A DNA stretch of 15,860 nucleotides from positions 1-15,860 of the forward strand of contig JAIRUL010000025.1 of NCBI GenBank assembly GCA_031254445.1, in the 5' to 3' direction. Source of the DNA: Chitinispirillales bacterium. GTDB taxonomy: Bacteria > Fibrobacterota > Chitinivibrionia > Chitinivibrionales > Chitinispirillaceae. The notes under the pieces were generated by a model. It made no database searches and was not told where the DNA came from. It was given only the letters and a program-made list of their open reading frames with translations. The stretch's first letter is position 1. Each line of letters begins with the position of its first letter. This document shows positions 6 through 15,699 of this stretch, one piece after another. The position numbers and the translations under genes were made by a program.

Positions 6-24
6 CCTAAAATCCGCAGTTAAA
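6..24. repeat. Left terminal inverted repeat of the IS1380 element
   Basis: The segment begins CCTAAAA and contains TCCGCAGTTAAA at 13-24. The reverse complement of this 12-mer recurs exactly at 1533-1544. The last transposase codons are encoded within it. Confidence 0.75.
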
Positions 25-1443
25 CCCTGGCGATAGCCCGTAATCCGGCATCACCGAGTTGACAAGTGCCTGTAATTTGTTATGATGCCTGCCCAACTGC
101 GGCGCAGTTAGCCTTAGCCATATTTGCAGTCGTCGGTATCCCTCTTCTATGCGCTGCCATAGGGTATCGTTGACGGCTAGTTTCATGTGCTTCTCGCGTC
201 CGGTTTCCACCATTTGCCCGGCTAGCAGCAAGTAGTCCCTTCTGGATGTTTGGGCTTCCTGATGCTTGCGGCCGCTGAAAAAGCGCGAGAACAAGCTCCA
301 CAAGTTGTACGACAGCAGCGTCAGGCGAGCCGCAAGTTCCGTTACATTGCTGTGCTGAGAACAAAACCCCGTAAACCCCCACTGGTTTTTCAGTTCGTCA
401 AAGATGTTTTCGCAGTCGGCGCGCTTTTGGTACAGCTCCACCGCCTGAAAAGCGTCCGCCTGCTGCTTGGTCAGGTTTGTTACCCACGCCGAGTATTCAT
501 ACCGGCAAGTGCCGAACAGCGTCCCGCTTTCCTCGGCGCTTTGTTCGGCTACCAGCCTGCGGCCAAGGACGACGCGCCGCTCGCGACTCCACCCACGTAG
601 CTTTAGCATCGTTTCTGCAACTTGAAGGACGCCGAAAGAGGCCGCGCCCTGCCACTGGTTGGCGTCCACGTTATTGATTGCCTCCATCACGCGGGCGGTT
701 TTCCTTAGCTTGAACAGATACCGAGGGCGTTCTTCCGGGCGCTCTTCATGCCAACTAGCGAAATCCTCCGAACAAAACGAAACGTCGGCACGGTTCAAGG
801 ATGGCCGCTTATCGGGCGGCAAGCGGCTAAGCAGTTGTTCAAGCATCTCTATCCAACCGCTGCTGGAACCGCTGTTCCCAGGACGGAACTCCATGTCGAG
901 GCATAGCCTGATCCCTGCAACCGAGCAGACCAATGGATGATGGCTGCCGCGGTTGCGCTTCATCGGGTTATAGCCGACCTCGACGCCTTCCTGCTCGCCG
1001 TAGCGGGTGGTTACCGTGGAATCCCAGTCTAATATGCAGGGTGCGGGCAGCGATCCATATATTATGCCGTTGACCTGATGCATCCATTTACGCCCGGCAT
1101 CGCTGTCGACGCTTTCGAAAAAACGGCGAACCGAGTCGTCGCCAGGAATGCGCCGCGCCGCTTTGAATATCTTGGCCAACGCCGCATCGTCCTGCACCGA
1201 GCGGATATGCTTGAAACGCTTGCCTTCTTGGATGCAGGTAAGGATGAAGCCGATTAATATGTCGCGTACCGGCGTCGCGTTGTTGCTGGTACGAGTCACC
1301 GGGCAAGCCTCTACCAATCGATCTATTATGCCGAGCTGATCCAAAAACGAGGCGAACGCCACCATCCCGCCGTATGTGGTAAGGTGCTTGTCGCTACGCT
1401 CGACGCTAAAACCGCCGCCGGGGGTGTCAAATTGGTAGTCCAT
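7..1443 (-). CDS. IS1380 family transposase
   Basis: This is a DDE transposase that cuts and moves the surrounding element. The 478-residue product fits the family length and looks intact. Numbered from the upstream GTG at 1452, the catalytic candidates are D142/D144 in LDWDST, D223 in RADVSF (usually RADSGF in this family), and E349/E353 in YQKRADCENIFDELK. The family motif GYNPMKRNRGSHHP follows the first aspartate. I chose the ATG at 1443 rather than the GTG at 1452 because AAGGTG lies six bases before the ATG. The stop codon lies inside the left inverted repeat. A hairpin covers the ribosome site, which is described separately. Family assignment is firm; activity is not proven. Confidence 0.92.
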   Translation of the reverse strand: MDYQFDTPGGGFSVERSDKHLTTYGGMVAFASFLDQLGIIDRLVEACPVTRTSNNATPVRDILIGFILTCIQEGKRFKHIRSVQDDAALAKIFKAARRIPGDDSVRRFFESVDSDAGRKWMHQVNGIIYGSLPAPCILDWDSTVTTRYGEQEGVEVGYNPMKRNRGSHHPLVCSVAGIRLCLDMEFRPGNSGSSSGWIEMLEQLLSRLPPDKRPSLNRADVSFCSEDFASWHEERPEERPRYLFKLRKTARVMEAINNVDANQWQGAASFGVLQVAETMLKLRGWSRERRVVLGRRLVAEQSAEESGTLFGTCRYEYSAWVTNLTKQQADAFQAVELYQKRADCENIFDELKNQWGFTGFCSQHSNVTELAARLTLLSYNLWSLFSRFFSGRKHQEAQTSRRDYLLLAGQMVETGREKHMKLAVNDTLWQRIEEGYRRLQIWLRLTAPQLGRHHNKLQALVNSVMPDYGLSPGFNCGF

Positions 1444-1447
1444 TGCG

Positions 1448-1464
1448 TTCACCTTATGGGTGAA
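1448..1464 (-). promoter_or_regulatory. Hairpin covering the transposase ribosome binding site
   Basis: TTCACC (1448-1453) and GGTGAA (1459-1464) form a six-base inverted repeat with a five-base loop. On the transposase mRNA, the AAGGTG that serves the ATG at 1443 would be paired with the upstream TTCACC. Insertion sequences often hide the start site this way so that read-through transcripts are poorly translated. Its action here is inferred from base pairing only. Confidence 0.5.
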
Positions 1465-1532
1465 GGTGGATAAGGGCTAAAAATACACGTAACCTATTGA
1501 AAATAATACTCAAATACTAATAAATGCAAATT

Positions 1533-1551
1533 TTAACTGCGGAATCTTGTT
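1533..1551. repeat. Right terminal inverted repeat of the IS1380 element
   Basis: It starts with TTTAACTGCGGA, an exact inverted copy of bases 13-24. The outer seven bases, ATCTTGT, agree with the left tip at only three positions, so the exact border is uncertain. Confidence 0.7.
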
Positions 1552-1581
1552 TCAAAAAAAACAAAAAAATTCATTTTTCTA

Positions 1582-1610
1582 TTGACAGCCCATTTCCCGC
1601 ATATTATTTT
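1582..1610 (+). promoter_or_regulatory. Sigma-70-type promoter of the nitrogenase-like operon
   Basis: A perfect -35 box TTGACA (1582-1587) is followed, after a 17-base spacer, by TATTTT (1605-1610). The region is AT-rich, lies outside the insertion sequence and is the only strong promoter-like site before the gene at 1729. The start of transcription would fall near 1617, leaving a leader of roughly 110 bases. A palindrome begins about ten bases after the -10 box, as expected for a repressor site. Confidence 0.6.
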
Positions 1611-1619
1611 AACTTAGTA

Positions 1620-1643
1620 AACAGATATGTGTTATCAGATAAC
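1620..1643. promoter_or_regulatory. Putative operator with palindrome GTTATC-A-GATAAC
   Basis: GTTATC (1631-1636) and GATAAC (1638-1643) are a perfect inverted repeat around a single A. The one-base gap is too tight for an RNA hairpin, so a DNA-binding protein is the more likely reader. Just upstream, AACAGATATGT (1620-1630) recurs exactly next to the promoter at 10475-10503. AACA (1620-1623) and TGTT (1630-1633) also form an inverted pair six bases apart. The regulator is unknown. Confidence 0.45.
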
Positions 1644-1655
1644 GACTAAAAATAA

Positions 1656-1696
1656 GGCCAAAACGCTTAAAAAAGCCAAAAACGGCCAAAAAACGC
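1656..1696. repeat. Three GCCAAAA repeats in the leader
   Basis: GGCCAAAACGC (1656-1666), GCCAAAAACG (1675-1684) and GGCCAAAAAACGC (1684-1696) are near-copies spaced over 41 bases in the untranslated leader of the nitrogenase-like gene. They may be protein-binding repeats or a product of local duplication. No function can be assigned. Confidence 0.4.
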
Positions 1697-1728
1697 AGAA
1701 ATAACAAGAAAGGCGGCGATTAAATAAC

Positions 1729-3066
1729 ATGAACGCAGTCATAGAACAAGAGCGCTACACGTGCGCGATAGGCGCTATGCAGAGCGTCGTGGCGATCCCT
1801 CGGGCGGTGCCTATCCTGCACTCCGGGCCGGGCTGCGGCGACATGATATGCGGCTTCTTCGAGCGCGCGACGGGGTACGCCGGCGGGTCGACGACGCCCT
1901 GCACCAACTTCTTGGAAAAAGACGTGGTCTTCGGCGGCATAGACCGCCTGCGCGACATCGTCGCCAACACGTACAAGGTGCTCGACACCGACTTGCAGGT
2001 GATCCTCACCGGATGCACCTCCGGCATCGTGGGCGACGACGTGGACGCGCTGGCAAACGAGTTCCGCGCCGAGGGCAAGCACATCGTCGCGGTCGAGACG
2101 GCGGGGTTCAAGTGCAGCAACTACGAGGCGCACAGCCTCGTGGTCAACGCCATCGTCGACCAGTACGTCGACGCGTTCGCGGACGGCAACGAGAGCCGGA
2201 GCGAGTCCGAGACCGTAAACGTCTTCGCCTCCCTGCCCTACCAAGACCCGTTCTGGAAGGGCAATCTGGGAGAATACAAGCGGCTGCTTGAGGGCTTGGG
2301 GCTAAAAGCCCACATCCTATTTGGCCCGCAGTCGGGCGGCGTCGCCGAGTGGAAGCGCATTCCGCGCGCGAATTTCAACATTTTGGTCTCCCCGTGGCAC
2401 GGCCTGCCTATCGCCGACAGCCTGAAAACAAAATACGGGCAACCGTATACGTGGTTCCCGCACATTCCCATAGGCGCGAACCAGACCGAGAAATTTTTGC
2501 GCCAAGTACTGGATTTCGCGCTCTTGCAAGGCGCCGACATAAGCCGCGACAAAGCCGAGGCGTTCATAACCCGCGAAAGCCACGCCTACTATGAGGAGAT
2601 CGATAATTTGGCGACGTTTTTGATGGAATTCCGGTACGGCCTGCCGAACCACGTCCACATCTTGCACGACGCCGGCTACGTCGCCGCGCTCAGCAAGTTT
2701 TTGCTGCACGAGGTGGGCATCGTGCCGAAAGAGCAGTTCATAACCGACAACACGCCCGACAAGTTCAAAAAGCAGATAGCGGACGATATCGCGTCGACAT
2801 CCGACAAGCGCGAGATCCCCGTCATCTTTGAACCCGACGCGGGGCTCGCGCAAGACGCGATCCGCAAACTCAGCCACAAGGGGCGCGGGTTGATTATCGG
2901 GAGCGGCTGGGACAAGGAGCTGGCGAGGGAAAAGGACTACGACTTCCTCTCCGCCTCGGCGCCGTCCCCCTACCGCTTGGTATTGACGAGCAACTACGCC
3001 GGTTTTTCCGGCGGGCTGCGCGTGATAGAAGATATTTATAACACCGTATTAGCCACTTATAAATAA
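1729..3066 (+). CDS. Nitrogenase component-1-like (oxidoreductase) subunit
   Basis: The 445-residue protein belongs to the NifD/NifK/NifE/NifN superfamily. C12 (YTCAIGA), C36 (HSGPGCGD) and C96 (LTGCTSGIVGDD) sit where component-1 proteins hold the P-cluster or similar cluster. NFLEKDVVFGG (60-70) is also typical. The segment matching the NifD Cys275 region reads NILVSPWHG (about 217-225) and has no cysteine. The C-terminus (YAGFSGGLRVIEDIYNTVL) recalls NifK-type subunits and lacks the NifD His442 equivalent. Extra cysteines are C41, C58 and C129. It is therefore probably not a true MoFe protein subunit. Its neighbours are a NifX-like carrier and a methionine-forming sulfhydrylase, which suggests C-S bond chemistry as in methylthio-alkane reductase. 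No NifH or second subunit is in the window. The start lacks a good ribosome site (AGAAAGG is 15 bases away). Family is firm; substrate is inferred. Confidence 0.85.
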   Translation: MNAVIEQERYTCAIGAMQSVVAIPRAVPILHSGPGCGDMICGFFERATGYAGGSTTPCTNFLEKDVVFGGIDRLRDIVANTYKVLDTDLQVILTGCTSGIVGDDVDALANEFRAEGKHIVAVETAGFKCSNYEAHSLVVNAIVDQYVDAFADGNESRSESETVNVFASLPYQDPFWKGNLGEYKRLLEGLGLKAHILFGPQSGGVAEWKRIPRANFNILVSPWHGLPIADSLKTKYGQPYTWFPHIPIGANQTEKFLRQVLDFALLQGADISRDKAEAFITRESHAYYEEIDNLATFLMEFRYGLPNHVHILHDAGYVAALSKFLLHEVGIVPKEQFITDNTPDKFKKQIADDIASTSDKREIPVIFEPDAGLAQDAIRKLSHKGRGLIIGSGWDKELAREKDYDFLSASAPSPYRLVLTSNYAGFSGGLRVIEDIYNTVLATYK

Positions 3067-3078
3067 GGAGGGGGCAAA

Positions 3079-3420
3079 ATGAGTTTTCGCGTCGCGTTTG
3101 CAAGCACGGGCGAGTACATCGACCAGCACTTCGGCTCCGCCCGCTACTTTCAGGTCTACGATATAGAACACAACGGGCACAGCTACATCGGGGCCCGCGA
3201 CGCGACCGCAATGTGCCAAAGCGGATGCGAGGGCGGCTTCGACCACCTTTTGAAAGCGCTAAACGATTGCGACGCGGTGTTCGCAAGCAAAATCGGCCAA
3301 TACGCGGCGGCGTTTATGATTAGCCACGGCAAGAGGGTCTTTGAGGCTGCGGGGACGGTGGAGGGCATCCTTGCAGAGATTAGGGATGTGAATTTGCTTG
3401 GGGAACTTTGGGAGATATAA
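3079..3420 (+). CDS. NifX/NafY-type iron-molybdenum cofactor-binding domain protein
   Basis: This 113-residue protein is a single domain of the family that carries nitrogenase cofactor or its precursors (NifX, NafY, the C-terminal part of some NifB). Typical features are the start VAFASTGEYIDQHFGSARYF with the conserved D-x-HFG (15-19), a CQSGC pair (C46, C50), and the ending DAVFASKIGQYAAAFMISHGKRVFEAAGTVEGIL. It starts 12 bases after the preceding stop, with an excellent AAGGAGG site at 3065-3071. The two genes are surely co-transcribed. By context it would hand a metal cluster to the nitrogenase-like protein. Members of this family also occur in unrelated iron-sulfur roles. Confidence 0.88.
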   Translation: MSFRVAFASTGEYIDQHFGSARYFQVYDIEHNGHSYIGARDATAMCQSGCEGGFDHLLKALNDCDAVFASKIGQYAAAFMISHGKRVFEAAGTVEGILAEIRDVNLLGELWEI

Positions 3421-3441
3421 AGCCAAAATCTTTAAAATCTT

Positions 3442-3526
3442 AAAGTCAAAGTCTTTTAAATCTTTTTCAGACGAAGCCTACGGCTTCATAACGTGTGGCG
3501 CAGAGCCGCCACACAAAGTCAAAGTC
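3442..3526. repeat. Intergenic repeat block with two hairpins
   Basis: The gap between the NifX-like gene and the sulfhydrylase holds AAAGTCAAAGTCTTTTAAA (3442-3460), which matches 4941-4959 at 18 of 19 bases. Next come the perfect hairpins GAAGCC-TAC-GGCTTC (3473-3487) and GTGTGGCG-CAGAGC-CGCCACAC (3493-3514). AAAGTCAAAGTC then returns at 3515-3526. No T-run follows the hairpins, so they may stabilise or divide the mRNA rather than terminate it. Confidence 0.6.
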
Positions 3527-3553
3527 AACATCAACAAACGAAAGGAAGAAAAA

Positions 3554-4912
3554 ATGTCAACAGCAACAACCGCGTACCGCTTCGATACGCAAAGAGTCAG
3601 GGCCGGGTACGAACCGAAAGAGCACAACTACGCGGTGTCGCCGCCCATCTACCAGACGGCGGCCTACGACTTCCGCGACGTGGAGAACGCGAAGAACCTC
3701 TTCAACCTCTCCGAGGAGGGCAACCTCTACACCCGCATAGGCAACCCCACGGTGGCGGTGCTCGAACAGAGGGTGGCCGCGCTCGACGGCGCGAGCGCGG
3801 CTATAGCGCTCTCTAGCGGGATGGCGGCTATTAGCTACACGCTCCTGAACCTCGCGGAGGGCGGCGGGAGGATCCTCACGTCGCCGTACCTTTACGGCGG
3901 CAGCGACGACAGCTTCAAGAAGGTTTACCCTAAGTTCGGGATCGAGTTCGACTACGCGAAGAACATCGACAACCCCGAAAAGCTGGCTGAGGAGATTAAA
4001 CCCGACACAAAAGCCATATACATCGAAAGCATCAGCAACCCGAACACCGTCTTGCTCGACGTTGACGCGATAGCGAAGGTGGCCCACGACCACGGCATCC
4101 CGCTCGTGGTTGACAACACGGTAGCCACGCCGTACCTCTATAGGCCAATCGAACACGGCGCGGACATAGTGGTATACTCCGCGACTAAGGGGCTAAACGG
4201 GCACGGCAACCTCATCGCGGGGCTGATTCTGGAGAGCGGGAAGTTCGACTGGGAAGGGAGCGGCAGGTTCCCGCACTTTGGCGAGAAGTACTACACGCTG
4301 CGCGACCCGGAGACCGAGGCCAACCGCAGCTACCTAGAGGTCTTCCCCGACTACCCGTTCACCACGAGGGTCCGCCTCAACTACCTAAACTACTTCGGCG
4401 CGGCGCTAGGGCCGTTCGACGCCTACCTCGCGGTTATCGGGCTGGAGACGCTCTCGGAAAGGCTCGGCAAGCAGAGCTTCAACGCCGCGGCGATAGCGGA
4501 TTACCTAAATGCCCACAACTCCGTAGAGTGGGTGCGCTACCCGGCGCTACGTTCGAGCCCCTACCACGACCGCTACAAGCGCGACTTCAAAAACGGCGCC
4601 GGCGGTCTTCTGGCGTTTGGTTTCAAGGGGACGCAGGAAGAGCGGGAGACGTTTTTGAACTCCGTGAAACTCCTGCACTACCACGTGAACATCGGCGACG
4701 CAAGGACGCTCATCGTCAACTCGCCGCAGACAACGCACGGGGAGCTCACGGTGGACGAGAAGGCGGCTGTGGACATTCCGGAGAACCTAATAAGGATATC
4801 GGCGGGGCTGGAGGACGTGGCCGATTTGATCGCGGATTTGGAGCAGGCGTTTCAAAGGGCGGCGGGAACGGGCGTGGGCTTTGAACCGGCGCTTCAAAGG
4901 GCGGCGGGGTAG
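3554..4912 (+). CDS. O-acetylhomoserine sulfhydrylase (Cys/Met metabolism PLP enzyme)
   Basis: This enzyme joins O-acetylhomoserine with sulfide or methanethiol to give homocysteine or methionine, using pyridoxal phosphate in the cytoplasm. The 452 residues fit the family (about 420-440) plus a short tail. Seen motifs are PIYQTAAYDF, YTRIGNPT (59-66), SSGMAAI, D187 (VVDNTVATPYL), and the PLP lysine K212 in VVYSATKGLNGHGN. The ATG at 3554 is chosen because AAAGGAAG lies at 3541-3548. The upstream in-frame codons encode Lys-rich, intergenic-looking sequence. The last 20 residues contain a duplicated QRAAG, described separately. Its position behind a nitrogenase-like gene suggests it captures a thiol made by that enzyme. 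Methionine gamma-lyase is a less likely alternative. Confidence 0.88.
   Translation: MSTATTAYRFDTQRVRAGYEPKEHNYAVSPPIYQTAAYDFRDVENAKNLFNLSEEGNLYTRIGNPTVAVLEQRVAALDGASAAIALSSGMAAISYTLLNLAEGGGRILTSPYLYGGSDDSFKKVYPKFGIEFDYAKNIDNPEKLAEEIKPDTKAIYIESISNPNTVLLDVDAIAKVAHDHGIPLVVDNTVATPYLYRPIEHGADIVVYSATKGLNGHGNLIAGLILESGKFDWEGSGRFPHFGEKYYTLRDPETEANRSYLEVFPDYPFTTRVRLNYLNYFGAALGPFDAYLAVIGLETLSERLGKQSFNAAAIADYLNAHNSVEWVRYPALRSSPYHDRYKRDFKNGAGGLLAFGFKGTQEERETFLNSVKLLHYHVNIGDARTLIVNSPQTTHGELTVDEKAAVDIPENLIRISAGLEDVADLIADLEQAFQRAAGTGVGFEPALQRAAG
4847..4908. repeat. Direct repeat in the 3' end of the sulfhydrylase gene
   Basis: GCGTTTCAAAGGGCGGCGGG (4847-4866) and GCGCTTCAAAGGGCGGCGGG (4889-4908) match at 19 of 20 bases with a 42-base period. 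Both copies are in frame and give FQRAAG and LQRAAG, extending the C-terminus beyond the usual family end. Confidence 0.7.
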
Positions 4913-4940
4913 AAGCCTGAGACCGTAGGCCGAAGGCTTT

Positions 4941-4994
4941 AAAGTCAAAATCTTTTAAAGCTGTTGGGGACGGGGCTCTGCCCCGTAACGCCCC
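4941..4994. repeat. Intergenic repeat AAAGTCAAAATCTTTTAAA plus GC-rich hairpin
   Basis: Bases 4941-4959 repeat 3442-3460 with one change. A hairpin follows: ACGGGGC (4970-4976), loop TCT, GCCCCGT (4980-4986). It is flanked by an outer GGGG (4966-4969) and CCCC (4991-4994). The association of the AT motif with GC stems suggests a dispersed REP-like element. No T-run follows. Confidence 0.55.
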
Positions 4995-5016
4995 GATAAA
5001 TTAGCCCCCCTGTCAA

Positions 5017-5052
5017 TATCCCCCCACATAAAGATGCGGGGGGATACTTTTT
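5017..5052 (+). terminator. Rho-independent terminator after the sulfhydrylase gene
   Basis: TATCCCCCC (5017-5025) pairs with GGGGGGATA (5038-5046). Inside, CAT pairs with ATG around the loop AAAG. TTTTT follows at 5048-5052. The long GC stem and T-run make a strong terminator that should separate the nitrogenase-like/sulfhydrylase unit from the transporter unit. Confidence 0.85.
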
Positions 5053-5059
5053 AAAACAT

Positions 5060-5138
5060 GCGCCCCTTTGGGGCGCGAAAGCCGGTACGGCATAGGCGGT
5101 GTCTGCCTCCCCCTTATGCGCCACGCTGGGGCGCATAA
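5060..5138 (+). promoter_or_regulatory. Structured leader of the importer operon (two hairpins)
   Basis: GCGCCCC-TTT-GGGGCGC (5060-5076) and TTATGCGCC (5114-5122) with GGCGCATAA (5130-5138) form two stable hairpins upstream of the binding-protein gene. A weak AGGC/GCCT pair lies between them. There is no T-run after either. I see no match to known riboswitch consensus sequences such as the S-box. I also see no convincing promoter in the 140 bases between the terminator and the gene, so how the transporter is transcribed is unclear. Confidence 0.4.
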
Positions 5139-5191
5139 ACAGTAAAGCGGCAACGTTATCATTATCCATAATAAAAAAAGGAGGATTGCAA

Positions 5192-6223
5192 ATGAAAGTC
5201 AAGAAGATCCATGCCGCCGTACTAACTGCGGCGTTCGCGTTTACCATTGCCGCTGGGCTGCTATTCTGCGGGGGCAAGCCTGCCGACGGCAAGTTCAAGT
5301 TCGGTAAAATAGACATCCCGGGCAAGGACGGCGCGCTTTGCAACGCGCCGCTTTACATCGCCTACGAAAAAGGGTTTTTGGCCGAGGAGGGGTTTGACGT
5401 CAACCTGATTTCCGCCGACATTGAGACAAAGAAGATCGGGCTGAACAACGGCGCGATCCCTATTGTCAACGGCGACTTCCAGTTCTTCCCCTCCATCGAG
5501 CAGGGCGTGAACGTTAAGGTCGTGGACGGGCTGCACAACGGCTGCATCAAATTCGTAGTCCGTCCGGGTTCCGATATTAGGGCCGCGCTTGACCTTAAAG
5601 GAAAGAAGGTCGGCGTGGACGAGATCGGCGGCACCCCGCATCAGGTCGCGAGCGTTTGGCTCGAGCAGGCGGGCGTTTCCGCGCTGCCGGAGAAGGGGCA
5701 GGTGACATTCCTCCCCTTCTCCGACGGCAATCTGGAACTGCAGGCGCTCTATAACGGCGACATCGACGTGGCGGCCATGTGGGATCCGCTCGGCTCCATC
5801 GCCGCTAAGGCCGGCAAGGCCGAGATCATCTTCGACCTCTCCACCGACCCCGCGTTTGCCGGAAAGTACTGCTGCTTTCTCTATGCGTCAAACAAGGTGC
5901 TAAAAGCGAACCCGCAGAAGGTCGCGGCGATCTTGCGCGCGTACAACAAGGCGCAGGACTGGATAAGCAAAAATGCGAGGGAGGCGGTGGACATCATCAC
6001 CGACAAAAAATATGCGGCCATCGAAGACAAGGAGCTTGCCGAAGAGCTTGTCAAAAGCTACGCCTACCCGTCGGCGCACAACCGCGAGTCCAACCACCAA
6101 GACGTCGGCGGGGACGTGCTCTACTTCGCGCGGGCGCTGCACGATATCGGGTATCTGACCACCGACCCGCAGGCGTTCACCGAGAAGGCGTATCAAAAAA
6201 TTGACCTGACGCAAGGCCAGTAG
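5192..6223 (+). CDS. ABC transporter substrate-binding protein (SsuA/NMT1-like)
   Basis: This is the extracytoplasmic receptor of the importer encoded by the next two genes. The 343-residue protein begins with a signal sequence (KVKK, then a hydrophobic stretch to about residue 25) and C26 in LLFCGGK. That resembles a lipoprotein site, but phenylalanine before the cysteine is unusual, so processing is uncertain. The mature part has the NMT1/SsuA pattern: NAPLYIAYEKGFLAEEGFDV, FVVRPGSDIRAALDLKGKKVGVDEIGGTPHQ and ALYNGDIDVAAMWDP. The ATG at 5192 follows AGGAGG at 5179-5184. Family members bind alkanesulfonates, taurine, nitrate or thiamine precursors. The nearby sulfhydrylase favours an organosulfur ligand, but the ligand cannot be read from the sequence. 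Confidence 0.85.
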   Translation: MKVKKIHAAVLTAAFAFTIAAGLLFCGGKPADGKFKFGKIDIPGKDGALCNAPLYIAYEKGFLAEEGFDVNLISADIETKKIGLNNGAIPIVNGDFQFFPSIEQGVNVKVVDGLHNGCIKFVVRPGSDIRAALDLKGKKVGVDEIGGTPHQVASVWLEQAGVSALPEKGQVTFLPFSDGNLELQALYNGDIDVAAMWDPLGSIAAKAGKAEIIFDLSTDPAFAGKYCCFLYASNKVLKANPQKVAAILRAYNKAQDWISKNAREAVDIITDKKYAAIEDKELAEELVKSYAYPSAHNRESNHQDVGGDVLYFARALHDIGYLTTDPQAFTEKAYQKIDLTQGQ

Positions 6224-6237
6224 AAAGAGCGGTTTTT

Positions 6238-7296
6238 GTGAATCTACGGAAGAAAAGCGGCGGCGCGGCGCTGGTTTTTAGCGGAAGCGCCGCCAACAAA
6301 ACGGTTTCAAATGCCAAATTTATTTGGATGATGGCGGCAAGCGTCGCGGGGTTTCTCTTGGCGCTCCTTGCAAACGCTTTCTTCCCGCAGGCGGCGCATA
6401 GCGCGGCGTTCAAAGAGTATACCGCGCTAGGAGTAACGCTCGACATGAACGGCGCGTACCGCTTAACGTTAGCCTTGCTTATCGCGCTATACGCGGGCGG
6501 CGGAATATTCGCGTATTTCGCGCCTTCGGGCAGGGCGAAATACGCGAAACGCGCCGCGTTCCTCTTTGCGCTCGGCGCCGCGCTTGCGCTTTGGGACATC
6601 TTCGGCACCAAGCTATCCCTGCTGCCGCAACCGTTTTTCCCCGGCCCCGCGAAAATAATCGAGTCGTTTCTCATAGAGGGCGGCTACATCTGGCAAAACA
6701 CCCTCTACTCGCTGCGCCTCTTCGCCGTGGGGTTCTTAGCCGGCGTCGCTTTCGGCATAGGGACCGGCATCCTCATCGGGTGGTTCCCCAAGGCCTACTA
6801 CTGGGTGTACCCTGTGCTGAAGACGACAGGCGTTATCCCCGCCGTTGCGTGGATGCCGTTTGCGCTCACCCTCTTCCCAACGCCGTTTTCCGCCGCCGCG
6901 TTCCTGATAATTATCTGCGTGTGGTTCCCCGTGGCATCGCTAACCGCGGCGGGGATTTCCGGCACGCCTAAGACCTACTTCGAAGCCGCGCGCACGCTCG
7001 GCGCGAAGACGCCGTATTTAGTCTTCCGCGTGGCCATCCCCCACGCCATGCCGAACATCTTCACCGGCATCTCGACCGCCACCGCGTTCGCTTTCACTAC
7101 GCTCGTAATCGCGGAGATGATGGGCCAGCCCGGCGGGCTAGGGTACTACATCAACGCGTCGAAAGTCTGGAGCGCCTACTACAAGGTTTTTGCGGCGATA
7201 GTCGTCATGGCTATCCTATTCAGCGTGATAATGCGCGCGCTCGAACTGGTTCGGGGCCGCGTGCTTAGATGGCAGAAAGGGATGGTGAAGTCATGA
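6238..7296 (+). CDS. ABC transporter permease (SsuC/TauC-like)
   Basis: This is the membrane channel of the importer. The 352-residue protein starts with GTG, 14 bases after the binding-protein stop, with a modest AAAGAG site at 6224-6229. The core from about residue 155 has the binding-protein-dependent transport fold and an EAA loop at about 246-278 (YFEAARTLGAKTPYLVFRVAIPHAMPNIFTGI), the contact point for the ATPase. Hydrophobic segments lie near 29-48, 75-95, 104-121, 163-183, 190-210, 219-238, 280-297 and 317-335. The first three exceed what a typical 250-270-residue SsuC carries. The gene overlaps the ATPase gene by four bases (ATGA). Confidence 0.88.
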   Translation: MNLRKKSGGAALVFSGSAANKTVSNAKFIWMMAASVAGFLLALLANAFFPQAAHSAAFKEYTALGVTLDMNGAYRLTLALLIALYAGGGIFAYFAPSGRAKYAKRAAFLFALGAALALWDIFGTKLSLLPQPFFPGPAKIIESFLIEGGYIWQNTLYSLRLFAVGFLAGVAFGIGTGILIGWFPKAYYWVYPVLKTTGVIPAVAWMPFALTLFPTPFSAAAFLIIICVWFPVASLTAAGISGTPKTYFEAARTLGAKTPYLVFRVAIPHAMPNIFTGISTATAFAFTTLVIAEMMGQPGGLGYYINASKVWSAYYKVFAAIVVMAILFSVIMRALELVRGRVLRWQKGMVKS

Positions 7297-8192
7297 GCGT
7301 ACAGCCGTTGCCTATAGGGGGATTGGGGATTGATGCCATAAACCGGCCGCATATTGACACTTCGGCAAAAAGAGCGGACATCGCCAGAAGCGAAAATCCT
7401 TCGCCATCATCAGACGGCGAGATTCTAAAAATAGACTCCGTAACCCGCACCTACACCGACGCCGAAGGGAACACCGTGGAGGCGCTGCGGGACGTAAGTC
7501 TTAGCGTTAAGAGGGGCGAGTTCGTGTCGATCATCGGCTCATCCGGCTGCGGCAAGACAACGCTCTTGCGGATGATCGCCGGCCTTGACGCGCCGGAATC
7601 GGGGGAACTCGTTCTAAACGGCGAGCGCATCGCTAGGCCCTCGCAAAAGCTCGGATACGTCTTCCAGCAGGGCAGCCTCTTCCCGTGGCAGACTGTCGAG
7701 CAAAACATATCGGCGGGGCTAAAAGCGCGGGGCGTTTACAAGGAGCGCAAAGCGGATGTGAAAACCTATATAGAGTTAATAGGCTTAACCGGTTTTGAGA
7801 AATCTTTCCCCCACCAAATCTCCGGCGGCATGGCGCAGCGCGTGGCCATAGCGCGCGCGCTGATAAATAACCCCGCAGTGCTGCTCCTAGACGAACCCAT
7901 GGGCGCCCTAGACTCCCTAACCCGCGCCGACATCCAATGCAAATTGCTGGAGCTCTGGAAGAAGCGCAACACAACGATGGTGCTAGTGACCCACGATGTG
8001 GACGAGGCGATTTTTTTGTCGGACCGCATCGTGATAATGACCCCGCGCCCGGGCAAAATCCAAGGCTTCATCAGCGTAAAAATCCCCCACCCGCGCCACC
8101 GAGGAGGGATCGAGTTCCTATCGATTCGCCGCGACATACTAGAAGTGCTGCATTTGGCGAGGGCGAACCCGGCGCCGGAGTATATGATATGA
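7293..8192 (+). CDS. ABC transporter ATP-binding protein (SsuB/TauB-like)
   Basis: This ATPase powers the importer. The 299-residue protein shows Walker A GSSGCGKTT (82-90), Q-loop Q125 in VFQQGSLFPW, signature SGGMAQ (177-182), Walker B VLLLDE (196-201), the D-loop GALD and the switch histidine H234 in LVTHDVDEA. The ATG at 7293 overlaps the permease stop as ATGA, which points to coupled translation. A start at 7269 is possible but would overlap more and adds no domain. The first 45 residues before EILKIDSVTRTY are a polar extension not seen in most SsuB proteins. The downstream gap holds no clear terminator. Confidence 0.9.
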   Translation: MSVQPLPIGGLGIDAINRPHIDTSAKRADIARSENPSPSSDGEILKIDSVTRTYTDAEGNTVEALRDVSLSVKRGEFVSIIGSSGCGKTTLLRMIAGLDAPESGELVLNGERIARPSQKLGYVFQQGSLFPWQTVEQNISAGLKARGVYKERKADVKTYIELIGLTGFEKSFPHQISGGMAQRVAIARALINNPAVLLLDEPMGALDSLTRADIQCKLLELWKKRNTTMVLVTHDVDEAIFLSDRIVIMTPRPGKIQGFISVKIPHPRHRGGIEFLSIRRDILEVLHLARANPAPEYMI

Positions 8193-8416
8193 AAATACAA
8201 TCTTTAAAGTCAAAAATCAGAGCAACCGAGCAAAACCGCTTCATGTTTTTCGGTGCGCCCAAAGAACGCTTTTTCAAATTGCCTTTTTGCCTTTAGATAG
8301 GCTTCATGTAATGTCATTGCCCTGCCCTCTTATTTTTTTAATCCTCGCCTGCCTCTTTTTTAATCTTTATTTTCCGGCATTGCCACGAAGCCAGCGTTTT
8401 ATTTTGCTCTCTCGCC
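8193..8416. other. Convergent intergenic gap with a third repeat copy
   Basis: This 224-base gap separates the importer operon from the oppositely directed copper-protein genes. AAAGTCAAAAATC (8206-8218), preceded by CTTT, matches the start of the repeats at 3442 and 4941. Several T-runs follow, but I find no strong GC stem next to them on either strand, so a terminator cannot be called. No convincing coding sequence was found. Confidence 0.4.
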
Positions 8417-10423
8417 TCAAACGCCCTCTTCATATCCTTGTCGTCCCCCGCCCCCGCCCTTCCCGGCGTCAAAATACGCGTCGGGGTAAATCAGCGTCTC
8501 GGCTCTTGCGGCTTCGGCTTTTACCGCTTCTATGTCTACGCTGTTGATATCGTCCACCACTTTTACGTATCCGTAAAATATATTGTCCCCGGTAGAAAAT
8601 TCAAAATTTACCGTAGGGTTCAGCGGCAGCACGTTTTCCCCCAGCCTCATCCCCACCTTGCTGAAGTAGGCGGGGATGATTATTTGGCTGTTGCCCGGGT
8701 CTGCGGATTCGACGTTGATTTTCCAAAGCGCTTGGATACCCTTTTGCATCACGACAATGGCCGGCTCGAACCCGTCGTCGCTCAGGCGTATCGTTACGGT
8801 TTGCGCGTTTGCGTTGCCGGACAGCTGCGCTAACGCGATTTTCTCCGTGGGGATAGCCACCCCGGCGGGCAGCGGCGCGTCGTCCGGCTCCCGCGGCGCG
8901 TCGGCGGCGCTCCTGCCCTCGGCGACCACCGTGACCGTGCCGAAAATCATGCCCATCCAGCAGGAGTAGCGGAAGCGCCCCGCGTTCTTCGGCGTGAACT
9001 CTATTACGTTGATGCCGGGCGAAAACGTGTGTTCGACGCCGTGTTCGCGCATTATGATGCGGTTGTTGCAGCCGTTGATGCTGCCCTGCGCGGCGTCGAT
9101 GGTCCACCGCACCGGAATGCCCTGCTGCACGGTGATCGCCGGGTAGCGGTTCGGGTGCAGCGAGGACGTAACAATTTGCGCGCCGTTTTCGATTATCGGC
9201 GTAAATGCCTCGTTGCCTTGATCTGCGGACATGGATGCCGCCATCCTGTCAATCGGGCTCGCGATCCCGGCAAGGTTCCAGCCGTTGGCAAACATCGTTA
9301 GCCCCATTGCCGCGACCAAGACGGCGCCGGCCTGCATGGCGCGGCGGGAAAACGCCTGGCCCTTTACGCCGCTCAGGATTCCGCTCACGGCTCCGACGGC
9401 AAACATCAGCGGGACGGTTCCTATGCAAAAGAGAAACATGGAGATGCCGCCTTGCACCGCGCTTCCGGTGGAGAGGGCGTATAGCTGCATGGCTTGCAGG
9501 GGCCCGCACGGCATAAACCCGTTCAGAAAGCCGACGGCGAGCGGGCCGCGGCCGGCTTTCCGCTCGTCGATTTTTTTGGAGAAGAATTTCGGCATGCGCG
9601 GGATAAAATTACGGAGGGACGGGAATATCCCAAGCATGTTTACCCCCATAATTAACATAAAAACGCCGGCAAGCAGCAGCGCAATCCCCTGAAAGCGCGA
9701 CGACACTGCGATAACGGAGCCGAGCGCGCCTACGGCGGCGCCGACAAGGGTGTAAGAGATAACCCTGCCGGCGTTGTACAGCGCGCCGGGAATCAGCAGG
9801 GAAAGATTGGACGGCGGGTTTGGGTTGATATTATCGCTTAACTTGGACGTTGATTTTAATGGCGAATCAACACTAATATTCTTGCCGATACCTTCACCTG
9901 CATTGTCATTTGACAACGCCGGCGATTCGACGCGTTCGCTCGCCCGCGCCTTTACCCCGCCCATCGACTGCGACAGGTTTATCCCCCCGCACATCGCGAC
10001 GCAGTGGACGGACGTTACAAGGCCGATGACAAGCACCATCCCGTAGCCCATGCCTGTCTGCGCGACCGGGAAAGAGGCGGCGAGGCTGCTCATGCTGAAC
10101 ATGCGCAGCAGTATGTAGAGGGCGAGGATGATCGCCGCTGCCCCCGCTATCTTCGACGCCGAAGCCTTTTCCTTGCCCCCCTCCAAGATCCTGTAGCCGT
10201 GCCCCTCGACCGCCGCGCGTAAATCGCTCATGGCGACGGCGGAAGCGTCGTAGGTCACCTCCGCCGTGCCCTTTCTATAGCTGACGGAGACGCCGTGAAC
10301 GCCCGCCATGCCCCCGAGCGCCCTCTCGATCGCGTTCTGGCAGTTCACGCAGGTCATCCCGCCTATGTAGAGCGTCTGCGCCTGTAGATTCCCTGTTTCC
10401 ATGCGGCTACCGGCCTTTTTCAT
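8417..10423 (-). CDS. HMA - DsbD_2/TauE-like membrane - double cupredoxin protein
   Basis: This 668-residue fusion is probably a copper-handling membrane protein. Domains in order: an HMA metal-binding domain (about 17-80) with GMTCVNC (C25, C28); a membrane segment (93-110); a DsbD_2/TauE-SafE-like core (about 126-385) with SVHCVAMCGGI (H140, C141, C145) and NGFMPCGPLQ (C306), split by a polar insert (about 152-205); a cupredoxin (about 410-502) with NGCN (C452) and CWMGM (C488, M490, M492); and a second cupredoxin-like stretch (about 540-625) with no such ligands. The tail is Gly- and Glu-rich. The start is uncertain: ATG 10423, TTG 10432 and ATG 10402 are possible, none with a good ribosome site. 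It is a paralogue of the gene at 10622-12166. The metal is inferred from the HMA and cupredoxin families. Confidence 0.82.
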   Translation of the reverse strand: MKKAGSRMETGNLQAQTLYIGGMTCVNCQNAIERALGGMAGVHGVSVSYRKGTAEVTYDASAVAMSDLRAAVEGHGYRILEGGKEKASASKIAGAAAIILALYILLRMFSMSSLAASFPVAQTGMGYGMVLVIGLVTSVHCVAMCGGINLSQSMGGVKARASERVESPALSNDNAGEGIGKNISVDSPLKSTSKLSDNINPNPPSNLSLLIPGALYNAGRVISYTLVGAAVGALGSVIAVSSRFQGIALLLAGVFMLIMGVNMLGIFPSLRNFIPRMPKFFSKKIDERKAGRGPLAVGFLNGFMPCGPLQAMQLYALSTGSAVQGGISMFLFCIGTVPLMFAVGAVSGILSGVKGQAFSRRAMQAGAVLVAAMGLTMFANGWNLAGIASPIDRMAASMSADQGNEAFTPIIENGAQIVTSSLHPNRYPAITVQQGIPVRWTIDAAQGSINGCNNRIIMREHGVEHTFSPGINVIEFTPKNAGRFRYSCWMGMIFGTVTVVAEGRSAADAPREPDDAPLPAGVAIPTEKIALAQLSGNANAQTVTIRLSDDGFEPAIVVMQKGIQALWKINVESADPGNSQIIIPAYFSKVGMRLGENVLPLNPTVNFEFSTGDNIFYGYVKVVDDINSVDIEAVKAEAARAETLIYPDAYFDAGKGGGGGRQGYEEGV

Positions 10424-10448
10424 TAAAGACAACGTCGGCTGTGGGACG

Positions 10449-10477
10449 AATAACAGATATGTATACTATGTGTTATT
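10449..10477. promoter_or_regulatory. Putative operator, AATAACA-N15-TGTTATT
   Basis: AATAACA (10449-10455) and TGTTATT (10471-10477) form a perfect seven-base inverted repeat around 15 bases, with inner ATA/TAT pairs extending it. It overlaps the -10 box of the minus-strand promoter and its start point, the place a repressor would sit. It contains AACAGATATGT (10452-10462), identical to 1620-1630, and TATGTGTTAT, also found at 1626-1635. Confidence 0.5.
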
Positions 10478-10503
10478 GTAGCATGATATTCATCCGATGT
10501 CAA
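10475..10503 (-). promoter_or_regulatory. Sigma-70-type promoter of the longer HMA-cupredoxin gene
   Basis: On the minus strand TTGACA (10498-10503) is followed by a 17-base spacer and TACAAT (10475-10480), close to the ideal sequence. Transcription would start near 10468, about 45 bases before the ATG at 10423. The gene therefore has its own promoter although a paralogue lies just upstream. Confidence 0.7.
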
Positions 10504-10558
10504 TATAAAAATAGTTTTTTGCCAAAAAGGAATGCAAGCCAAGGTCCGCCGGTTCCGC

Positions 10559-10587
10559 GCCGCCGCGGCTACGCGCGCCACGGCGGC
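10559..10587. other. GC-rich inverted repeat between the two copper-protein genes
   Basis: GCCGCCG (10559-10565) and CGGCGGC (10581-10587) can form a seven-base stem with a 15-base loop, about 35 bases after the stop of the upstream minus-strand gene. No T-run follows on the minus strand, so it is at best an imperfect terminator or mRNA end. Confidence 0.3.
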
Positions 10588-10621
10588 AAGCGCGTTAATG
10601 TTTTTTGGCGCGTCGGCAGAA

Positions 10622-12166
10622 TCAATTCCCTATTTGGAGCGTCTCCGCGCCCCTCGGTTCGCAGCACGCGGCGCCCCGGCGGGGGTTTGCCTGCGAGGAC
10701 GGCTCAACGGGGGCCGGCTGGCCGATGGCTGCGCCGCTTGACACCACCGTTATCGTGCCGGGGATCATTCCCATCCAGCAGGTGTATGGGATTTTCCCCA
10801 CTTTGCTCGGCGTGAACTCGACGACGTTTTCGCCGGGCTGGAATTTGTATTCGATGCCGTATTCCCGTATGAATATCCTGTCGTTGCACCCGTTTATGCT
10901 GCCGGGCGGCGCGTCGATTATCCACTTGACGGGGCGGTTGGCTTCTACGGTTATCGAGGGGTAAGAGAATGAGCGGAGGGTGCTGTTTACGATTTGGGGG
11001 CCCCTGTCTATTGCGAAGTCGACCAAGGGGGCCGCGCTGTTTTGGCGCGCGGCGGAGGCGAGGGGCACTCCGCCGACCCCCGTTAGGCCGAAGAGGTTCC
11101 AGCTCTGCGAGAGCATGCAGAGGCCGAGGACGGCGACCATGACCGCGCCGGCGGCCATGACTTTCCGCGAGGACTTTTTCCCGGCGATCGCGCTGAACGC
11201 GCCGAGGCCGAACATGAGCGGCACGGTGCCGAGGCAGAAGAGCGCCATCGAGAGCGCGCCCTTTGCGGCGCTTCCGGTGGAGAGGGCGAATATCTGCATG
11301 GCCTGAAGCGGGCCGCAGGGCAAAAAGCCGTTCAGGAAGCCGACGATGATAGGGCCTTTTTTGTCCGCCGCGCCGACCCAGCGCGAGACGAACGCCGGCA
11401 TGCGGGGGACGAAGCGGCGCATATGCGGGAAGAGGTCGAGCATGCCTATCCCCATGGAGAGCATGAAGAGCCCGGCGATCAGCTTCAGGGCGCCCTGCGC
11501 GTTGATAGAGAACGTAACGGCCGCGCCGGCCGCCCCGACGGCCGCGCCGATAAGCGTGTAGGATATCAGGCGCCCTGCGTTATACTGCATAGACGGCCAT
11601 AGGTACGAAAAGCGCCTGCCCAAAACGGCGGCGTCCGCCCTGCCGCTGTTATTGCCGGCGGCATTCGCGTTGGTTTCACGGGCGGCGGCGTTAGCGCCCC
11701 CATCGCCTCCCGCGCGCGGCACGCACTGGGAGAGGTTTATCCCGCCGCACATCGCGACGCAGTGGACGGAGGTGAAGAGCCCGACCAAAAAGATAAGCCC
11801 GTAGCTCATGTCGACGGCGGCGAGCTTGGACGGGACGAGCATGTTCAAGAGCCCGAACTGCTGCAGGACGATGTAGATAGCCGCTATAATGACCATCATC
11901 CCCGCCGCGCGGTTCCAGTCGATTCCGGCGCGCGCAGCGATATATTCACCCTGCGCATCATAGCCTAAGCCGTTGATAACAGCGGAGACAGCATCGAGGG
12001 TAACCCGACTTGGGTCGTATGTGACGGTGGCGGTTCCGCGGCTATAGCTCGCCGTGGCGCACTCCACCCCCTCCACAGCGGAGAGGGTGCCGCAGATAGT
12101 CTCCTCGCAGTGCGCGCAAAACATCCCGGCGACCCGTAAAACTATAGTTTTAGCATCGGCAGTCAT
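10622..12166 (-). CDS. HMA - DsbD_2/TauE-like membrane - cupredoxin protein
   Basis: This 514-residue protein is the shorter paralogue of the gene at 8417-10423. The HMA domain (about 7-72) has GMFCAHC (C17, C20). A membrane segment spans about 87-104. The DsbD_2/TauE-SafE-like core (about 121-360) has SVHCVAMCGGI (H136, C137, C140) and NGFLPCGPLQ (C284), with a polar Ala/Asn-rich insert at about 150-185. One cupredoxin domain (about 385-476) has NGCN (C427) and CWMGM (C463, M465, M467). A CC pair lies at 501-502. The ATG at 12166 is preferred because AGGGGA lies just upstream. The in-frame sequence before it falls in the AT-rich promoter region. A likely role is moving or reducing copper across the cytoplasmic membrane. 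Names such as sulfite exporter or urease accessory protein would be misleading. Confidence 0.84.
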   Translation of the reverse strand: MTADAKTIVLRVAGMFCAHCEETICGTLSAVEGVECATASYSRGTATVTYDPSRVTLDAVSAVINGLGYDAQGEYIAARAGIDWNRAAGMMVIIAAIYIVLQQFGLLNMLVPSKLAAVDMSYGLIFLVGLFTSVHCVAMCGGINLSQCVPRAGGDGGANAAARETNANAAGNNSGRADAAVLGRRFSYLWPSMQYNAGRLISYTLIGAAVGAAGAAVTFSINAQGALKLIAGLFMLSMGIGMLDLFPHMRRFVPRMPAFVSRWVGAADKKGPIIVGFLNGFLPCGPLQAMQIFALSTGSAAKGALSMALFCLGTVPLMFGLGAFSAIAGKKSSRKVMAAGAVMVAVLGLCMLSQSWNLFGLTGVGGVPLASAARQNSAAPLVDFAIDRGPQIVNSTLRSFSYPSITVEANRPVKWIIDAPPGSINGCNDRIFIREYGIEYKFQPGENVVEFTPSKVGKIPYTCWMGMIPGTITVVSSGAAIGQPAPVEPSSQANPRRGAACCEPRGAETLQIGN

Positions 12167-12226
12167 AAATTTTCCCCTATCGGGAAACACGAAAATTGTA
12201 TTGGAGCGGTTTTGGGTTATGGAATA

Positions 12227-12256
12227 ATTATAGTAAAGGCATTTACGAAAAATCAA
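12227..12256 (-). promoter_or_regulatory. Promoter of the shorter HMA-cupredoxin gene
   Basis: The minus strand reads TTGATT (12251-12256), an 18-base spacer, then TATAAT (12227-12232). The leader to the ATG at 12166 would be about 55 bases. I do not see the AACAGATATGT operator here, so this paralogue may be regulated differently from the longer one. Confidence 0.55.
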
Positions 12257-14538: not shown

Positions 14539-15699
14539 ATGAAATACAACTTCGACCGCGTGGTAGACAGATACGGCACATACAGCGTCAAGTACGACCC
14601 GCGCACGCGCGGCAAGCCTGTCGATGCGCTCCCTATGTGGGTTGCCGATATGGATTTCCCAACGCCGCCTTGCGTGCAGGACGCGCTTACGGAGCGCGCG
14701 AGGCACGGGATTTTCGGGTACTCGGAGCCTGACGCCGGGTACTTCTCCGCCGTGCAGGGGTGGTTTGAAAAACGCTTCGGGTGGCGCGTAGAGCAGAAGT
14801 GGCTGTCGATAACGCCGGGCGTGGTGAACGCCATATACATCGCCGTCCGCGCGTTCACGAAGCGCGGCGCCGGCGTGCTTATCCAGCAGCCGGTCTACTA
14901 TCCTTTTGAATCAGCCGTCAAGCACACGGGGCGGGAACTCTTAGTCAACGAACTAACGTATCGCGACGGCAAGTACGGGATAGACTTTGACGATTTTGAA
15001 GCGAAAGCAAGGTGCGCGAGCCTGTTCATCCTCTGCAACCCGCACAATCCGGTCGGGCGCGTTTGGACGCGCGACGAGCTGATGCGAATGGGCGAGATTT
15101 GCCTAAAGTACAGGGTTGTCGTTATTTCCGACGATATTCACCAAGACTTCGTTTACAATGGCCACCGCCACCTAGTGTTCTCGGAGCTCGATAAGCGCTT
15201 TGCGGGCATAACGGTCACCTGCACCGCGCCCTCCAAGACGTTTAACCTCGCTGGATTGCCCCACGCGAATATTTTTATCGCAAACGACTCGATGCGCCGC
15301 GAGTTCAGAAACGGGTACGCAAGCATCGGCTTGAGCCAACCTGGCGTTATGGGCATAGTCGCGTGCAAAGCGGCGTATGAGGGCGGCGCGCAGTGGCTTG
15401 ACGAACTTATAAGCTACCTATCCGGCAACATGTCGCTTATACGAGAGTTTTTGCCGGCCCATACCCCTAAGATTAAATTCGTCGAACCCGAGGGCACGTA
15501 CCTAGCGTGGCTTGACTTCTCCGCGCTTGGGCTGGCGCCGCGCGAACTAGACGACGCCGTTACCGATAAAGCCAAATTGTGGTTTAACAGCGGCCCGACA
15601 TTCGGCATGGGCGGCGCAGGCTTCCAGCGCATGAACGTCGGCTGCCCGCGCTCGCTGCTTCGGGTCGCGCTTGAACGGCTGAAAAGCATTGCGGCCTAA
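14539..15699 (+). CDS. MalY/PatB family C-S lyase (PLP aminotransferase fold)
   Basis: Enzymes of this class I fold family cleave cystathionine or cysteine C-S bonds (cystathionine beta-lyase activity), releasing homocysteine, pyruvate and ammonia. The 386 residues fit the family. Seen motifs are LPMWVADMDFPTPP (31-44), SITPGVVNAIY, CNPHNPVGRVW (166-176), ISDDIHQDF (196-204) and the PLP lysine K233 in APSKTFNLAGL. The C-terminus reads FGMGGAGFQRMNVGCPR. No clear ribosome site precedes the ATG. It lies 7 kb from the sulfhydrylase and is transcribed separately, so a shared sulfur role is possible but not shown. Aminotransferase activity is the main alternative. Confidence 0.88.
   Translation: MKYNFDRVVDRYGTYSVKYDPRTRGKPVDALPMWVADMDFPTPPCVQDALTERARHGIFGYSEPDAGYFSAVQGWFEKRFGWRVEQKWLSITPGVVNAIYIAVRAFTKRGAGVLIQQPVYYPFESAVKHTGRELLVNELTYRDGKYGIDFDDFEAKARCASLFILCNPHNPVGRVWTRDELMRMGEICLKYRVVVISDDIHQDFVYNGHRHLVFSELDKRFAGITVTCTAPSKTFNLAGLPHANIFIANDSMRREFRNGYASIGLSQPGVMGIVACKAAYEGGAQWLDELISYLSGNMSLIREFLPAHTPKIKFVEPEGTYLAWLDFSALGLAPRELDDAVTDKAKLWFNSGPTFGMGGAGFQRMNVGCPRSLLRVALERLKSIAA

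Follow-up and report, generated by a model that had tools for sequence, protein, structure and literature searches.

A Mar-Like Nitrogenase-Family K Subunit in a Chitinispirillales Contig: A Candidate Class of C–S Reductases beside Methylthio-Alkane Reductase

The window analysed here, a 15860-base contig of a 70%-complete Chitinispirillales assembly, encodes the K subunit of a nitrogenase-family reductase, followed by genes for a cofactor carrier, an O-acetylhomoserine sulfhydrylase and an importer. This K subunit belongs to a clade standing beside the methylthio-alkane reductase (Mar) of R. rubrum. We propose, with a probability of about 0.6, that the clade represents a Mar-kind variant, a C–S reductase for an imported organosulfur compound, whose reaction, substrate and product are predicted from sequence. 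The comparisons below draw on relatives collected by similarity to K in a scan of named genome contigs, which gave 158 relatives; the best 80 of them (L009–L088) were kept.

Kinship of the K Subunit to MarK

The best PDB match of the window K protein was 9d9u_C (E 5.4e-116), with the next-best match at 1.3e-14. The sequence of this chain is the same as that in 9FMG, the structure of the R. rubrum methylthio-alkane reductase complex (PMC12552129), and the D chain of 9fmg is 100% identical to a protein named methylthio-alkane reductase. Kinship to MarHDK, suggested in a first-pass annotation made from the letters of the sequence, is thus borne out, the best match being MarK of the Mar complex at 43% identity. 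The same annotation had pointed to three P-cluster-type cysteines, which are indeed there: Cys12, Cys36 and Cys96 align with MarK Cys32, Cys56 and Cys121, the P-cluster ligands of that protein (PMC12552129). They are invariant among 15 aligned close relatives of window K, and all three occur in 113 of 115 K rows, the remaining two rows being cut short.

Assignment of the window protein to NifK, NifN or NifE was considered and rejected, because its scores lie far under every NCBIfam nif cutoff, NifI was found in 0/80 relative loci (the query genome's own contig serving as a positive control), and nif genes are located on other contigs. The best nif model was nifE with 73.7 bits (cutoff 505), while the top model overall was BchB with 83.4 bits (cutoff 490). 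The first-pass annotation had asked whether the protein falls inside canonical Nif with a complete nif cluster nearby; this is not so, and there are no nif genes in the window. In the same genome, contig C40 (L131) carries nifH, two NifI-type genes and nifD, and contig C24 (L130) carries the end of nifK, nifE and a fused nifN-nifB, these roles being read from matches and from gene order.

Phylogenetic Position and Coexistence with Mar Proper

For the D and K tables, sequences shorter than 380 amino acids or with runs of N were dropped, including the D subunit of the same-genus genome GUT77, which has a scaffold gap. In the K tree (38 rows), the window clade comprised 23 rows with support of 100/100 and stood beside the Mar clade (7 rows, 100/99) and two more small lineages, all of which group together (98/99). 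Among the 41 rows of the D tree, 18 made up the window-type clade (100/99); its sister is Mar proper with a single Treponema sequence added (95/93), and a Mar-like group supported at 97/94 encloses them. Instead of branching within the clade of R. rubrum MarDK, the window type thus forms a separate clade beside it. The tree program issued a warning about several long branches coming together; the clades are thus more secure than the order in which neighbouring ones are placed.

Coexistence with Mar was also observed. Pectinatus L063 has a true Mar pair (71% identity to R. rubrum in D and 64% in K) directly before the window-clade pair, and L041 and L086 hold a second K closer to MarK, about 8 kb away in L086. 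The earlier suggestion that the system is distinct from the described mar operons therefore gains substance, the clade being apart from Mar proper in both trees and coexisting with it. Its carriers include Clostridia, Treponema, Coriobacteriales, Synergistaceae and gut Fibrobacterota. Since named isolates (Faecalispora, Kineothrix, Acetobacterium and Pectinatus) are among them, the proposal is directly testable.

Cofactor Ligands and Substrate Pocket of the D Subunit

The K protein by itself is not the enzyme. D in relative L019 matched MarD (9fmg_A, E 1.5e-134). For the D alignment, 114 rows from loci and the R. rubrum MarD row (115 in all) were combined with the best 120 of 820 MarD homologues, and residues are numbered as in PMC12552129. 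Clade rows (75, one of them cut at the start) were those with more than 55% identity to L019 D; close MarD rows (122, with R. rubrum MarD counted twice, as P0121 and as the PDB reading) were those with more than 60% identity to R. rubrum MarD. In every clade row with data, the P-cluster cysteines 66, 91 and 158 were kept, as were Cys73, Trp195, Phe199, Cys270, His375, Arg428 and His429, so the relatives' D has the P-cluster cysteines, Cys270 and Arg428-His429 of Mar.

The Gln74 and His194 of the Mar substrate site are, in contrast, absent from the clade. Position 74 was occupied by Met (53), Thr (15), Val (4) or Ala (2), with Gln in 0/74 rows, and position 194 by Val (49), Ile (14) or Met (12), with His in 0/75; among close MarD rows, Gln74 and His194 were each found in 122/122. 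Cys73 was replaced in these 122 rows by Asn in 8 and by Thr in 1. In MarD, Cys73 and Gln74 occupy the place of NifD Val70, and His194, Trp195 and His375 surround the S2B site (PMC12552129). Overall, the two sets differed at 35 positions, each at least 93% fixed in both, six of which follow just after His429: N430G, L432M, A433T, P434L, L435W and A436G. As the pocket is altered, the exact Mar substrates are uncertain for the clade and a different one is probable. The clade enzyme is a sister of Mar with a changed pocket and probably a different substrate, provided that the replaced residues do alter substrate choice.

Three other groups of sequences deserve a comment. L124, L125, L132 and L134 (genera g24 and g29, the former presumably Fibrobacter) form another Mar-like clade with Asp73, Gln74 and Ile194; a NifB-type gene adjoins, MccB is present in three of these four loci, and L134 has K ahead of D. 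In a third clade of nitrogenase-like DK proteins (L127, L128, L016:887 and L035:11504), the 429 position is His and the Arg428 position is a gap; a profile search with this clade placed Geobacter, Pelotomaculum, Acetivibrio and others among the best 120 of 1039 matches. Finally, L129, from the same phylum as the window, has a D subunit with a single P-cluster-type cysteine, as described for isethionate reductase (Isr); it was the only one of the 115 D rows with this pattern.

Gene Set of the Window and Its Conservation in Relatives

The window shows the following features up to the end of the importer genes:

7..1452, minus strand: transposase, DDE_Tnp_1_4 (PF13701, 126.2 bits)
1453..1728: AT-rich leader before K (31% GC)
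1729..3066, plus strand: K subunit of a Mar-like nitrogenase-family reductase, with Cys12, Cys36 and Cys96 (PF00148, 200.7 bits; PDB match; tree)
3079..3420, plus strand: NifX-type cofactor carrier, X (PF02579, 78.3 bits)
3554..4912, plus strand: MetY-type O-acetylhomoserine sulfhydrylase (PF01053, 396.6 bits)
5192..6223, plus strand: SsuA/NMT1-type substrate-binding protein (family matches and predicted fold)
6238..7296, plus strand: ATP-binding cassette (ABC) permease of the SaoP/NtrB/TauC class, BPD_transp_1 (family matches)
7269..8192, plus strand: ABC ATPase of the SaoA/NtrCD/TauB class (family matches)

The six open reading frames of 1729–8192 are all intact and all on the plus strand. 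Together with the family matches, they confirm the NifX-like carrier, the pyridoxal-phosphate-dependent sulfhydrylase and the full SsuABC-type importer, all in one direction, that the first-pass annotation had listed. All of its listed genes are real, and the set is incomplete as an enzyme, the window having no D, H or NifB-like gene. The more likely starts of MetY and of the binding protein are ATG 3554 and ATG 5192, each having a purine-rich stretch resembling a ribosome-binding site just upstream. Neither tRNA scans nor Rfam at its gathering thresholds gave a match in the window. Further to the right, 8417–12256 holds two adjoining membrane proteins, encoded on the minus strand and bearing HMA and DsbD_2 domains (one of them also a cupredoxin-like domain), beside dprA; they were matched in 6/7 other genomes of the genus. 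A PatB-type C–S lyase (TIGR04350, 457.7 bits) is encoded at 14539–15699, and PatB-like matches were found in 5/80 relative loci.

Each of the 80 relatives has a MarD-like gene upstream of K, in the same orientation, with a median gap of 18 bases between the D and K matches (more than 100 in 7 loci; largest 454). Other neighbours were counted by tblastn with identity thresholds of our own choosing in the 33 loci with full flanks (more than 8.4 kb either side): H in 31, B in 27, X in 26 and MetY in 21. Across the 80 relatives, many of which have short flanks, X was close to DK in 50. At least two of the three genes of an SsuABC-type importer were present in 17/33 full-flank loci, MetI plus MetQ in 10/33 and either type in 24/33, while MetY or MccA/MccB occurred in 30/33. 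The 31 loci with 10 kb either side of K gave the following distances of matches from K (within 5 kb and at 5–10 kb, respectively): MetY 19 and 6, binding protein 14 and 2, ATPase 6 and 9, H 19 and 11. The expected conservation of a neighbourhood with sulfhydrylase and importer is thus seen in the relatives' loci, and its absence, which would have spoken against a common system, is not (MetY 21/33, importer 24/33).

The B proteins of L027 and L053 matched best as NifB (TIGR01290, 276 and 279 bits), below a cutoff of 343.65 set for the longer NifB. Both are without the C-terminal NifX part of NifB, and that part matches X, which makes the pair of B and X look like a NifB divided in two. In Acetobacterium tundrae, a URO-D gene, mlp-type methyltransferase-like, directly follows DK (L077:11437-12477).

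Sulfhydrylase, Binding Protein and Sulfite Reductase

The window MetY scored 469.5 bits against TIGR01326, slightly under the cutoff of 495.1, and matched PDB 7kb0 with E 3.3e-116. Enzymes of this type accept sulfide or methanethiol. In the binding protein, C50, C118, C227 and C228 are invariant across 27 aligned sequences, a set that in our view recalls the Cys-rich motif of Thi5. Its AlphaFold2 model (mean predicted local distance difference test score 88) has a fold of the SsuA/TauA/NrtA/CmpA/Thi5 class.

The sulfite reductase domain PF01077 was not found in 8/12 clade-carrying genomes searched, namely the window's (70% complete), that of GUT77 (68%), L019, L024, L028, L032, L065 and L075; a positive control matched in 11/14 genomes. 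Because of this, sulfite would be of little use to most of these hosts and is an unlikely product.

The Locus in Its Own Genus

In the window, the minus-strand transposase occupies the place of D, 6 bases short of the contig end. This transposase is present in a single copy in its own assembly and in none of seven same-genus genomes. No trace of a D remnant was found in the 276 bases before K. This leader contains a promoter-like match, TTGACA-17-TATTTT at 1582–1610, which is weak, as six such sites occur in 1400–8500 against 2.7 expected. It also contains a palindrome, GTTATCAGATAAC, at 1631–1643, which is not conserved in relatives; its role as a shared operator was dropped, the core occurring in four relative loci at scattered places.

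Fibrobacteria bacterium GUT77 (Fibrobacterota), from the same genus and presumably a termite-gut genome, has a K match of 73.929% over 1331 bases. Its D, with an internal scaffold gap, ends at the K start, and the end of a MetY-like gene lies further upstream. K was present in 2/8 genomes of the genus, while DprA, to the right of the locus, was present in 8/8 and a Dsb-type protein in 7/8; L141, L142 and L144 carry this block, or its Dsb-DprA part, without sulfur genes in the fetched flanks. Such a distribution makes the locus look like an acquired island, disturbed afterwards by a transposable element. Mis-binning of the contig was rejected, as DprA is 68–76% identical in 7/7 other genomes of the genus, with the Dsb-type gene adjoining in five.

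Proposed Mechanism and Alternatives

We suggest that the window carries a portion of an operon for organosulfur assimilation, the fullest form of which in relatives comprises D, K, X, B (a NifB-type radical SAM protein), MetY, an SsuABC-type importer and H. In such an operon, assembly and transport of an [Fe8S9C] cluster would fall to B and X, and H would pass electrons, with ATP, via the P-cluster between D and K to the cluster in D, where the C–S bond of the imported compound would be reductively cut. MetY would then join the freed thiol (methanethiol) or sulfide to O-acetylhomoserine. Import, C–S cleavage and thiol capture had been put forward in the first-pass annotation; kinship, neighbourhood and the separate clade agree with it; that the substrate is a methylthio compound and that a thiol is released are inferences. 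Beyond this, we would give even odds to a second functional class of nitrogenase-cluster C–S reductases, in which the [Fe8S9C] ligands are kept, Gln74 and His194 are lost, the substrate is imported, the thiol or sulfide goes straight to MetY and the hosts are without sulfite reductase.

Several observations weigh against this proposal. D, H and a NifB-like gene are absent from the window, and its own 70%-complete assembly yielded neither a D of the clade type (the best match, at 32%, belongs to the nif genes) nor a second H (one full-length NifH match only). Among full-flank loci, MetY is absent from 12/33, no importer of either type is present in 9/33, and the importer is methionine-type (MetI plus MetQ) in 10/33, seven of them without the Ssu type. 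Mar proper, too, has SsuBC-like genes nearby (L123, L125 and L126), and in L063 an ABC set precedes the Mar pair; the importer is thus not peculiar to the clade and is weakened as a mark setting it apart from Mar. The binding-protein model gives similar Z scores (about 23 to 28) across its whole class, and the fold therefore does not point to any one ligand. PF01077 is present in 4/12 genomes (L027, L063, L076 and L077), and the 80 sampled loci come from interrelated, partly redundant relatives.

Might the clade simply be a methylthio-alkane reductase, acting on the R. rubrum substrates 2-(methylthio)ethanol and dimethyl sulfide, with neutral drift of the pocket? The cofactor ligands and the Arg428-His429 hallmark are kept, a MetY neighbour suits the capture of methanethiol, and importers beside Mar proper mean that import is no mark of a different substrate. 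We nevertheless hold this to be unlikely, given the separate clade in two trees, the position side by side with true Mar in L063, the second, MarK-nearer K in L041 and L086, and a pocket in which Gln74 and His194 occur in no clade row with data, among 35 fixed differences that include the six after His429. Far less probable is an Isr-like sulfonate reductase that would receive isethionate or taurine via the SsuABC-type carrier and release sulfite. It would fit the SsuA-type binding protein and full importer, and Isr partners SsuCAB in R. capsulatus (PMC11423573). However, the relatives' D has three P-cluster cysteines and the Mar cofactor ligands, B scores as NifB, and most hosts searched (8/12) gave no sulfite reductase domain. 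Membership in Isr was therefore rejected on the D cysteines, three in all clade rows with data, with support from the NifB-type B.

The remaining alternative concerns the window's strain only and is compatible with any of the readings about the clade. Here the K operon would be an orphan, D having been lost or moved with the transposable element, and MetY and the importer would serve ordinary sulfur uptake. In its favour, no D was found in the strain's own assembly, a transposase is in the place of D, GUT77 keeps D directly before K, and a promoter-like match lies directly before the window's K. We find this reading rather doubtful: K runs its full length uninterrupted by a stop codon, and with an assembly of only 70% completeness and a contig that breaks off at the transposase, a missing piece may carry D, H and B.

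Should a Mar-kind C–S reductase with a different substrate be confirmed, it would be a third nitrogenase-like sulfur-assimilation enzyme, next to Mar and Isr, the two met in the literature searched. It would occur in many gut and sediment anaerobes, pairing the cofactor ligands of Mar with an altered pocket, and would illustrate how a single metallocluster scaffold can be adapted to various C–S substrates. It could also name a sulfur-supply route in rumen and insect guts, with possible release of methanethiol, sulfide or hydrocarbon there.

Comparison with Known Systems

No analysis of this clade was met in the literature searched, which was mostly open-access, was available in part and included PMC9147875, PMC8209448 and PMC12330013. 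With Mo-nitrogenase NifDK/NifEN, the window protein shares the PF00148 family and the three K-side cysteines; it differs in K scores far under the nif cutoffs, in the lack of NifI in the 80 relative loci and in the location of nif genes on other contigs. The likeness to IsrBHDK with SsuCAB of R. capsulatus lies in the pairing of a nitrogenase-like enzyme with an SsuABC-type importer in organic sulfur assimilation. IsrD, however, has one P-cluster-type cysteine and no ligands of the iron-molybdenum cofactor type, Isr releases sulfite, and IsrB is reported to be nearest BciD (PMC11423573), whereas the clade D has three cysteines; the B of L027 and L053 scored best as NifB, which suggests a partner different from IsrB.

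PMC10418091 describes MarHDK-like "group IV-A" genes close to mlp gene clusters of type I. There as here, Mar-like genes keep company with genes for sulfur and methionine metabolism, and a URO-D gene (mlp-type) adjoins DK in Acetobacterium L077; an active-site analysis was not met in the available part of that paper. If the two groups are the same, the existence of the clade may already be partly known, the active-site pattern apparently not.

The nearest known system is MarBHDK of R. rubrum, in which methanethiol is a methionine precursor (PMC12552129). The resemblance extends to a DK pair with P-cluster cysteines, Cys270 and Arg428-His429, and to a NifB-type partner. Methanethiol from Mar is captured by O-acetylhomoserine sulfhydrylase. 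The differences are an identity of about 41–43%, a separate clade that coexists with true Mar in one genome, the replacement of Gln74 and His194, and a rewritten stretch after His429.

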